Positions 14,681-17,231 of a stretch of DNA of 64,000 nucleotides are shown here, piece after piece. Source of the DNA: an uncultured Alistipes sp. (lineage in GTDB: Bacteria; Bacteroidota; Bacteroidia; Bacteroidales; Rikenellaceae); the NCBI GenBank assembly GCA_949283205.1, contig CASDSD010000027.1, forward strand, positions 1 to 64,000, in the 5' to 3' direction. Within the stretch, counting starts at the first letter, position 1; each line of letters starts with the position of its first letter. Under the pieces are notes generated by a model. It did no database searches and was not told where the DNA came from. It worked only from the letters and a program-made list of their open reading frames with translations. Position numbers and translations under genes: made by a program.

Positions 14681-16678
14681 CTATTCGTTTGCAGCCCGAT
14701 CCGGAGTCTCCGCATCGGTCATGGCGGTCGTGTCCATGTTTTCTCTATTTCCCGCAGACGTCACCGTCTCTGCGGATATCTTCTCTGCCGCCTCGAGGTC
14801 CGTATTCCCTGCCGTTCTCTTCGCGGGGCGGCGGCGTGGACGGCGCTTCGGCTCTGCGGTTTCGTGTGCCTGCTCCGGTGCTGTCTCATGTTCGATTCCG
14901 GACGATGCCTTCTCTTCGGAGACTCTCTTCGCGGGTCGGCGGCGTGAACGGCGTGTCGCGGCTGCAGCCTCGGGCGTGCTCTCCTGCGCTGTCTCATCTC
15001 CGATACCGGCGGCTTCCGTGTCTTCGGCGGCACTCTTCGTCTCCGACGGTGCCATATCCGCGTTAGGCTCCGTGGCCGTGATGCCTTCATCGCTTGCGAC
15101 GGACTCTCTTTTCGAGGGGCGGCGGCGTGAACGGCGTGTCGTGGCTGCTGTCTCGGGTGCGCTCTCCTGTGCCGTCTCGTGTCCGATACCGGCGGCTTCC
15201 GCGCCTTCGGCAGCACTCTCCGTCTCCGCTGGCTTCATATCCGCATTCGACTCCATGACAGCATTGCTGTCGGCGTTCTCGACGGTCTCGCTCTTCTCGG
15301 CGGCTCTCTTCTGGGAGCGGCGGCGTGAACGGCGGCGCGGGGCTGCCGTCTCCTCTGCCTCGGCGAGGTCGGCGTCATCCGCTGCGGCCGCAGCGGTCCC
15401 TGCGGTCGGGATATCATCCGTATCGGTATTGCCCTCCGCAATGCTTCCCGTCTCGCTTTCGGGTGCGGTTGCCGTCTCCTCTGCCTGAACGGTATTGTCC
15501 GTCTCCCGTTTTTCTCCCGTCGCCTGCATGTCGGCAATGGGACCATCTGCCGCTGTTGTCGTATCTTCATTGTCGGCAGCAGGTACGGCTGCGGCCTCCG
15601 ATACGTTCGTGGCGGCACTGTCCTCCGTATTCACGGCGCGTGAGTCCGTATGTTCGGCTGCGGCGCCGTCGATTGCATCGTTCCCTTCGCCGTCGTTTGT
15701 CGCTCCGGCAGTCTCGGCAGACTCGGCCGCCTCCATGGCGCGGCGGCGGGCACGGCGTGCCGAACGTCCCGGTCTCGATCTCTTCGCCGGCTTGTCGGGA
15801 TCGGTGTCGCTCTCCGTCCCGGAGTCGGATGCCTTGATGCTGTCGCCCTCATCTGCCGTCTCGGTCACGCTCTGTCGTGTGTGCCGGCTGTCCGACGGCG
15901 CAAGGTTCTTTTCAATGGCGTCGAGCCTGTCGAAGAGCTTGGCGCAATCCTCCTCGCGGAAACCCTGCGATACGGAGTATGCGGCGTGCTGTTCGGCCTC
16001 CTTCTTCGAGTCGCCCGAACCGTATCCCGCCTCTATGTCGTCGATAAGCACCTTGCAGTAGAATACGGGGTGCGCCGACGAGTAGTTTTTGTCGTGCGTG
16101 GTGATGAAACGGATGAAGTGGTGGTTCTTCTGGCACCACTCGATGAGGCGGCTCTTGAAGTCGGTCTCCTCCTCGAGCAGCGCCCCCGTGCGGAGATAGT
16201 CGCCGAAGATCCGGTTTATGATCAGCCGGTTGACGAAGTCGTATCCCTGATCCAGATATATCGCACCCATCATCGCCTCGAAGGCATCGCCGTAGATATG
16301 TTTCTGCGAGAAGCTTGCCGAGGAGTGTGTGATGACGTGGGTGTCGAGTTTGAGGCGCTTTGCCACCTCGTTGAGCGACTGGCGCGAGACCATCTTGGAG
16401 CGCAGCTGCGTGAGGAATCCCTCGTCCTGGTCGGGGAACTCTATGAAGAGGTAGTCGGAGGTGACGCTCTCGATGACGGCGTCGCCCAGGAACTCAAGAC
16501 GCTCGTTGTTGATCTGGCGGCCGTCGTCGAGCGTTACCGAGGCCGACTTGTGTATCAGGGCGAGCTTGTAGAGCTCGATGTTGTGCGGAATGAATCCGAA
16601 CATGTCGTCGATGGCGGCATAGAACATGCGGTCTTTGCCGAAACGGCGGCGGATGGGACGTAAAATGAAATCTATCAC
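14681..16678 (-). CDS. rnc: Ribonuclease III with long arginine-rich disordered tail
   Basis: A 665-residue RNase III, against about 225-250 for a usual one. The catalytic domain (about residues 20-165) has the signature ERLEFLGDAV (59-68) and GDAFEAMMGAIYLD. A double-stranded RNA-binding domain follows (about 173-240). From about residue 265 to the end is a roughly 400-residue low-complexity tail rich in Ala, Glu, Asp, Thr and Ser. Five basic blocks interrupt it near residues 297-314, 447-459, 514-525, 575-585 and 611-621, each resembling RRSRRRPxKR. Two tail units repeat with an exact 61-residue (183-bp) period. The GTG at 16678 is preferred as start because it begins the family-like N-terminus; upstream in-frame ATGs at 16744 and 16756 add sequence that does not look conserved. 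Confidence 0.9.
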   Translation of the reverse strand: MIDFILRPIRRRFGKDRMFYAAIDDMFGFIPHNIELYKLALIHKSASVTLDDGRQINNERLEFLGDAVIESVTSDYLFIEFPDQDEGFLTQLRSKMVSRQSLNEVAKRLKLDTHVITHSSASFSQKHIYGDAFEAMMGAIYLDQGYDFVNRLIINRIFGDYLRTGALLEEETDFKSRLIEWCQKNHHFIRFITTHDKNYSSAHPVFYCKVLIDDIEAGYGSGDSKKEAEQHAAYSVSQGFREEDCAKLFDRLDAIEKNLAPSDSRHTRQSVTETADEGDSIKASDSGTESDTDPDKPAKRSRPGRSARRARRRAMEAAESAETAGATNDGEGNDAIDGAAAEHTDSRAVNTEDSAATNVSEAAAVPAADNEDTTTAADGPIADMQATGEKRETDNTVQAEETATAPESETGSIAEGNTDTDDIPTAGTAAAAADDADLAEAEETAAPRRRSRRRSQKRAAEKSETVENADSNAVMESNADMKPAETESAAEGAEAAGIGHETAQESAPETAATTRRSRRRPSKRESVASDEGITATEPNADMAPSETKSAAEDTEAAGIGDETAQESTPEAAAATRRSRRRPAKRVSEEKASSGIEHETAPEQAHETAEPKRRPRRRPAKRTAGNTDLEAAEKISAETVTSAGNRENMDTTAMTDAETPDRAANE

Positions 16679-17053
16679 GTAATTATGTATTCTGAACGGT
16701 TGTGTTGCGGGCACGATTGCGGCGTTCCGTCTTCCGAAGTGCATGCCTGCCGTCACGGGCGGCGCGGAATCCGGGGCCGTTGCGGAGGAGTGTCTCGGGC
16801 ATCCTTCGCAGCGATGGGTCTCCGTTGCCCGGCGGCGGTTTGTCGGTATGTGTTTTCAGCGACGGCGTCAGCGGCGCGGCATCATGGCTGGACTGTGTTT
16901 ATGATTTATGGAAGAGCCATCATGCTGTGGGCCGCGCGCTTCGTCTCGAGTCCGGTTTCGGGCGCGAAGCCTGTCTTCTGCCTGCATTGGATATGGCGAT
17001 TGTGTTGTGAGTGGGTTGTGCGTGTCGGCGGCGGGATTCGGAAAAACGGGAAA
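16679..17053. other. No gene seen between rnc and acpP
   Basis: About 375 bp of GC-rich DNA without a plausible gene on either strand. In many Bacteroidales fabF lies between acpP and rnc; I looked for ketosynthase motifs here and found none. Confidence 0.6.
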
Positions 17054-17092
17054 AGGGCCAATCGAGGAGAAAATCCGCCCCGATATGGCCCT
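17054..17092 (-). terminator. acpP terminator
   Basis: A stem AGGGCCA/TGGCCCT with inner pairing (ATCG-GG with CCCGAT), followed on the minus strand by T-rich sequence (TTTCCCGTTTTTC). It ends the acpP transcript before rnc. Confidence 0.7.
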
Positions 17093-17231
17093 GCTCTCTG
17101 CGTAGAACTATAACAAGTTCGACTGTGTCCCTGTACCGCACTCGGGCCCGCGACGTCCGCAGACGCACGTCCGATATTTCGTGCGGAAATACCGGCGGAC
17201 ACGTTTTATGCGAGGTATATGGTCTTCGAAA

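Follow-up and report, generated by a model that had tools for sequence, protein, structure and literature searches.

The RNase III encoded in the window, i.e. the whole 64,000-nucleotide stretch of DNA analysed here, carries behind a normal enzyme core a C-terminal tail of about 400 residues that is predicted to be disordered. The tail is a charge-segregated polyampholyte, and in the window's clade three to five short Arg-rich patches stand between acidic, Ala-rich spacers. The explanation to which we give about even weight is that a multivalent RNA-binding tail brings RNase III and RNA together in clusters, in the manner of the disordered regions of Rho and RNase E, to which it is unrelated. 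RNA binding, clustering and an effect on cleavage or partners are what we infer from these patterns, and a true tail-driven condensate in cells is perhaps conceivable, though we rather doubt it.

The window belongs to contig C27 of a 2.39-Mb assembly that is 92% complete, and a similarity search with the window protein found its closest relatives in uncultured Alistipes. Read from the most distal start, the open reading frame (14681..16756, minus strand) codes for 691 aa; the GTG at 16678 is the likely true start, since the window and three relatives all have GTG as the first codon of the sequence VIDFILRP. Pfam places Ribonucleas_3_3 at residues 60-185 and dsrm at 201-261, and no domain in the tail. 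The catalytic domain scored 100 bits with PF14622 (cut-off 35) and 83.8 bits with PF00636 (cut-off 27). Residues E59, E62, D66, D131 and E134 (numbered from the GTG start), and likewise other core residues, were invariant in 32/32 aligned sequences. The signature motif and these five acidic residues are presumably those with the catalytic roles of RNase III. The protein can thus be assigned as a bacterial RNase III by a catalytic domain over the cut-offs and by its signature and acidic residues, and the invariance of the acidic and other core residues suggests an active enzyme. Its core is intact and the 92%-complete genome gave no second match, so it is probably the housekeeping RNase III of the cell.

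RNase III is among the most uniform of bacterial enzymes, typically about 220-280 aa long with one C-terminal double-stranded RNA-binding domain (dsRBD) as its last part. The window protein shares the catalytic domain, the dsRBD and the invariant acidic residues with canonical bacterial RNase III but continues for about 400 residues after the dsRBD, whereas tail-less relatives end soon past the last helix, with stop-to-stop frames mostly of about 257-300 aa. The features of the gene are collected in Table 1.

Table 1. Features of the rnc gene and its tail-coding region in the window
Feature	Position	Strand	Basis or detail
rnc, RNase III, 665 aa	14681..16678	minus	GTG start; ORF open to 16756
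RNase III catalytic domain (PF14622/PF00636), signature NNERLEFLGDAV and GDAFEAMMGAIYLD	16202..16579	minus	Pfam
dsRNA-binding domain (PF00035)	15974..16156	minus	50.2 bits (cut-off 23)
C-terminal tail, predicted disordered, net acidic, about 400 aa	14684..15886	minus	composition, charge, model
Arg block 1, RSARRARRR	15740..15766	minus	helix in model
Arg block 2, PRRRSRRRSQKR	15305..15340	minus	RRRSRRRSQKR
Arg block 3, RRSRRRPSKR	15107..15136	minus	sequence
Arg block 4, RRSRRRPAKR	14924..14953	minus	sequence
Arg block 5, PKRRPRRRPAKR	14816..14851	minus	sequence
183-bp in-frame duplication, copies 15100-15296 and 14917-15113, 155/197 identical	14917..15296	minus	offset comparison
108-bp in-frame repeat, 86/116 identical	14816..15039	minus	offset comparison and Tandem Repeats Finder (period 108)

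The tail is appended past the last helix of the dsRBD region and runs from about residue 291 (691-aa ORF numbering) to the stop. It consists of 21% Ala and 21% Asp+Glu without a single aromatic residue and has a net charge of -34 over 399 aa; Asn and Gln account for 16 and 7 of the 421 residues from residue 271 on. FoldIndex, computed with our own script, was negative in 349/349 tail windows. In the AlphaFold model (mean pLDDT 59, pTM 0.40), pLDDT was mostly under 50 over the last 400 residues, which were without secondary structure except one helix over block 1; the disorder call rests on this model, whose 32-row input alignment was thin over the tail, and on composition. The original prediction of an acidic, disordered tail of some 400 residues behind a normal core therefore stands, disorder as a prediction, with the tail slightly shorter than the 14681-15900 proposed for it.

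The five Arg-rich blocks claimed for the tail were all recovered, with cores (RRxRRR) at residues 334, 475, 541, 602 and 638 and core-to-core spacings of 141, 66, 61 and 36. The last three spacings had been given correctly and the first was missing; the description of the blocks as of the RRSRRRPxKR type holds for blocks 3-5, which fit RR[S/P]RRRPxKR closely, but not for blocks 1 and 2. By the strict rule for a dense block (6 or more K/R in 9 residues), five were observed versus 0.05 expected, and 0/1000 shuffles of the same composition reached five; a looser rule used below (5 or more K/R in 9) counts some adjoining blocks. Charge segregation of the tail exceeded that of 500 shuffles (z = 8.2). 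Both measures mark the setting of basic blocks in acidic spacers, as originally described, as a non-random pattern.

These features bear on a simpler explanation, which we hold to be rather unlikely, namely that the Arg blocks serve as an RNA tether only and raise affinity for and capture of structured RNA, e.g. rRNA precursors, that the enzyme then cleaves in cis, and that neither clusters nor a condensate form. As reviewed in PMC4822317, Arg patches in disordered stretches bind structured RNA, and basic patches beside globular domains raise RNA capture and avidity. The number of blocks varies from three to five even among the four nearest species, as expected if total avidity alone matters. 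Such a tether by itself, however, leaves the acidic spacers (blocks 36-141 residues apart) and the strong charge segregation unexplained.

At the DNA level, the repeat scores were 92 at offset 183 and 41 at offset 108, whereas none of 30 codon shuffles scored above 16. Since both repeats lie far above the shuffles, blocks 3-5 appear to have grown by in-frame duplication, in agreement with the predicted 183-bp period and with 108 bp as a second one. In the tail alignment, the stretch with block 3 is missing from the three closest relatives (L003, L168 and L002). Searches for a second tail of this kind in the same genome gave no further protein: tblastn of the tail (E <= 1) returned the tail itself only, and Arg-block DNA patterns, which overlook blocks written with other codons, matched no second protein. 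One other pattern match (L082) was rejected, as it fell in a 79-aa frame while the longest frame there, of 651 aa, lies on the opposite strand; one pattern, with 384 matches versus 419 in the control, proved too unspecific to use. Among the other frames of at least 150 aa in the window, none had more than one dense block when the charge filter was applied.

The distribution of the tail was followed in 98 non-redundant Rikenellaceae rnc sequences, obtained from 130 rows after dropping 11 (L070, cut by a contig end; L081, with a broken frame; and L178-L186, from other families) and 21 duplicates. This sample is non-random, comprising the best 80 loci by similarity to the window protein and others chosen by score or length. 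Tails of at least 100 aa were found in 30 sequences, of 50-99 aa in 2, of 25-49 aa in 2 and of less than 25 aa in 64. In the nearest set, starred in the tree and formed by the window sequence, L003, L168 and L002, all tails are 314-399 residues long; those of the latter three measure 314-350 residues and have four blocks each (3-4 by the stricter rule). As these three come from other genomes and carry the tail in frame, the assembly or frameshift artefact for which a check on relatives had been proposed is ruled out. The tail is present in the near species. The window lies in a starred clade of 24 rows, of which 20 are tailed and the other four have 0, 20, 25 and 55 residues. A second group of eight tailed rows had support of 89 and was not starred, and L018 and L055 are tailed too. 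Parsimony required six changes in tail presence, of which starred branches force at least three, and change counts do not separate gains from losses. A single clade of all 30 tailed rows was rejected (p-AU 0.0009); holding the 12 Arg-block rows together was borderline (AU p 0.048), for a group picked after the tree was seen. In a survey of the genus Alistipes, an RNase III domain was detected in 169/180 genomes; among the 150 matches listed, 31 stop-to-stop frames, which may take in sequence upstream of the start, were at least 380 aa long and 119 were under 380 aa. The many short frames in the genus and the short or absent tails within the clade count against a strongly conserved role.

In the four nearest species, dN/dS was 0.35-0.55 in the tail, below 1 in 6/6 pairs, and 0.04-0.08 in the core; the tail values are rough because dS is near saturation (0.67-1.87) and the alignment uncertain. 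The ratio below 1 suggests that the tail is a constrained yet fast-evolving protein sequence. Identity between L003 and L168 was 50/56 in blocks versus 135/276 outside, and between the window protein and L003 36/56 versus 51/231. Block columns were more alike than spacers in 5/5 pairs tested (p 5.6e-10 to 0.0009), a conservation inflated by MAFFT lining up Arg runs. As judged from these alignments, the tail in the window's clade is in fast drift with the blocks retained.

On these grounds we consider it improbable that the tail is largely neutral low-complexity growth, produced by repeat slippage in a GC-rich gene and tolerated past the last domain. The two DNA repeats, the fast turnover and repeated absence of the tail, and acidic repeat tails elsewhere in the order would all fit such growth. 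It would not account for the blocks and the charge segregation of the window's clade, both non-random, for blocks better kept than spacers, for dN/dS below 1 in every pair or for long open frames kept in 30/98 non-redundant rows.

The tails of relatives are variations on the same pattern. By the 5-in-9 rule, two or more K/R-rich blocks stand in 29/30 of the tails that reach 100 aa, and the block count lies above shuffles at p 0.05 in 18/30 (14/30 by the 6-in-9 rule); aromatic residues number 0-3 per long tail. Charge segregation, tested in 14 tails, exceeded at least 494/500 shuffles in 11; it was not above shuffles in L005 and L004 and fell below them in L018. The 164-residue tail of L018, rich in Ala, Gly and Ser and low in charge, is the sole one of the 30 long tails without a basic block.

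Some blocks of relatives resemble AT-hooks: L067 has three canonical hooks of the RRRGRPRK type, L066 four KRRGRRK-type blocks, and L152 and L163 have KRGRRPK. Together with similar blocks in the Rho proteins of the genus (KRGRRPR, KRRGRKPK or close variants), they speak for a tether to DNA or to the transcription machinery, in which AT-hook-like blocks would anchor RNase III to the nucleoid or to Rho/RNA polymerase so that it cleaves RNA during transcription. We regard this as quite improbable for the window protein, whose blocks are without the G-R-P core; the AT-hook core [KR]GRP[KR] is absent from its tail and occurs in 1/98 tails, that of L067. AT-hooks bind RNA too (PMC4822317), so the motif fits either nucleic acid.

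In other Bacteroidales, 367 genomes matched, and the loci described here are from among the matches listed. Long open frames there were rejected as the same thing for those read (L178-L182). In L178 and L179, two genomes of one genus in another Bacteroidales family, no stop codon separates the rnc frame from a following frame that by eye we take to be a phosphoglycerate mutase (gpmI-like), 800 aa in all, a possible RNase III-mutase fusion or read-through. The RNase III of L180-L182, from another Bacteroidales family, have acidic Asp/Glu/Asn/Ser tails with no Arg blocks, the L180 tail being made of near-identical repeats, AIILDEKQIEVQSQDVVDD.

Acidic tails of the latter kind, the net charge of -34 and the acidic Hfq C-terminus, which is reported to restrain Hfq (PMC5606850), would be in line with autoinhibition, i.e. 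with acidic spacers that mimic RNA, fold over the basic dsRBD or the blocks and restrain cleavage. This we find very improbable: autoinhibition has no need of Arg blocks, yet in the window's clade no part of the tail is better conserved than these, and several relatives have net-positive tails (L004 +14, L005 +12, L162 +16). Against the preferred reading of an RNA-clustering tail, the net acidic charge could weaken RNA binding.

The region upstream of rnc showed peculiarities of its own. A non-coding 185-nt stretch between acpP and rnc (17046-17231 of the window, minus strand) is 87-91% identical among the window, L003, L168 and L002, far above the conservation of the remaining rnc leader, and was not found in the other loci compared. 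Its predicted fold is multibranched and ends in a hairpin with a T run (fold z -2.56); the consensus has 54 pairs, 43 of them unvaried and one with both sides changed. Rfam gave no match in this stretch at E 0.5 and a single sub-threshold match near rnc. The stretch may encode a small RNA not yet listed, one that RNase III might target. The gap between acpP and the RNase III core measured 1.1-2.0 kb in 63/90 rows, which fabF, presumably the usual neighbour, would fit, and under 0.7 kb in 27/90; the short gaps include those of the window (16679-17231), L002, L003 and L168 (430-557 bp).

A like pattern was found in Rho of the same genome, which has a 139-residue acidic, Ala-rich stretch before its RNA-binding domain with the blocks QRKRGRRPR and PKRRGRKPK (charge segregation z 3.3). 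This stretch and the rnc tail agree in Ala (19 and 21%), Asp+Glu (19 and 21%), Arg (9.4 and 9.7%) and aromatics (0.7 and 0%) and are unlike in Lys (6.5 versus 3.5%) and Ser+Thr+Asn+Gln (16 versus 25%). Rho was found in 26/27 other genomes of the genus searched, and both blocks, or variants such as KRRGRRPK, KRRGRKAK and RRRGRPPR, occur in 27/27 Rho (26 plus that of the window's genome), in genomes with tailed and with tail-less RNase III alike; some of these Rho stretches are not acidic but close to neutral in charge. The RNase III blocks of L152, L163, L066 and L067 are close to the Rho blocks. In 6/6 pairs, local scores between the DNA of the Rho stretch and the rnc tail stayed within 40 codon shuffles; a transfer of DNA from Rho to rnc is unsupported, and with no shared DNA similarity in the six pairs tested the likeness looks convergent. 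The comparison of Rho with RNase III accordingly stands on style and composition, not on homology.

Among the other RNA enzymes, RNase E/G of the same genome is encoded by a separate gene with a compact 524-aa frame and no scaffold tail. Helicase (8 matches) and S1-domain (9 matches) loci had no Arg-block/acidic tail in the parts read, i.e. the last 110 residues of the longest frames, some cut by the locus end, in 12/17 loci, the other five being additional matches within the same S1 gene. Hence, among the RNA enzymes examined, the pattern appears in RNase III and Rho.

In the mechanism that we favour, the Arg patches would bind RNA weakly and with many valences. RNase III acts as a dimer, so one enzyme would hold about ten patches, which would raise local RNA capture and could cross-link RNase III and RNA into clusters or into condensates that depend on RNA. 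The acidic spacers would keep these soluble and reversible, and the tail would work like the basic motifs of the disordered region of Bacteroides Rho. A far bolder extension, which we put forward as speculation and think improbable, is that in this Alistipes lineage the part of disordered scaffold in an RNA-processing body falls to RNase III rather than RNase E, and that the tail and the Rho stretch co-condense on RNA, perhaps on starvation as in B. thetaiotaomicron Rho (BtRho), which would link termination with the cutting of double strands. Should the tail cluster RNA, the pattern of Bacteroidota Rho would look like a portable module gained by a second, unrelated RNA enzyme, and the occurrence of tailed and tail-less RNase III in one genus offers a natural experiment. 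In keeping with the original prediction, searches of open PMC papers yielded no description of an RNase III with a long disordered Arg-block tail, a scope outside which lie most subscription papers and all preprints.

A sequence search of the PDB with the window RNase III matched the core only. The best match, to the catalytic part, was Drosha (6v5b, 9asm), which is eukaryotic and differs in having two RNase III domains and another appendage; Drosha has an RS/Pro-rich N-terminal stretch. AT-hook and basic-patch motifs (HMGA1, Tat/Rev class) share short Arg-rich patches with the window tail, whose blocks are without the G-R-P core of AT-hooks.

The analogy with RNase E drawn in the original prediction applies to architecture only. 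RNase E of the E. coli degradosome and of Caulobacter BR-bodies is likewise an endoribonuclease whose long C-terminal tail is disordered and made up of alternating charge patches, a combination that the window tail matches by prediction (pLDDT mostly under 50; z 8.2). RNase E is, however, of an unrelated nuclease fold, and its catalytic domain (PF10150) is absent from the window RNase III; in the window tail no partner-binding motif was identified, where an RNase E scaffold has sites for PNPase, helicase or other partners. Alternating charge patches are reported to drive condensation of Caulobacter RNase E and likewise of Sinorhizobium RNase E (PMC12510024, PMC12691583).

The Rho stretch of the same genomes is a closer analogue of the rnc tail. 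The disordered region of BtRho has short conserved charge-dense stretches amid drifting sequence; without its two positive motifs BtRho no longer condenses with RNA, either in vitro or in cells, and ppGpp is required for condensation in vivo (PMC13269538). Like BtRho, the window RNase III is probably a housekeeping RNA enzyme, from the same phylum and with a charged appendage; in BtRho short positive motifs persist as the length and sequence around them drift (PMC13269538). Short positive motifs kept in a drifting charged region were found in the window's clade as well, in a comparison of pattern and not of motif letters. The two differ in position, the BtRho region being N-terminal, before the RNA-binding domain of the helicase, and the window tail C-terminal on a nuclease, and in composition, with a K/E-rich and an N/Q-rich prion-like subdomain in BtRho where the window tail is rich in R and A instead.
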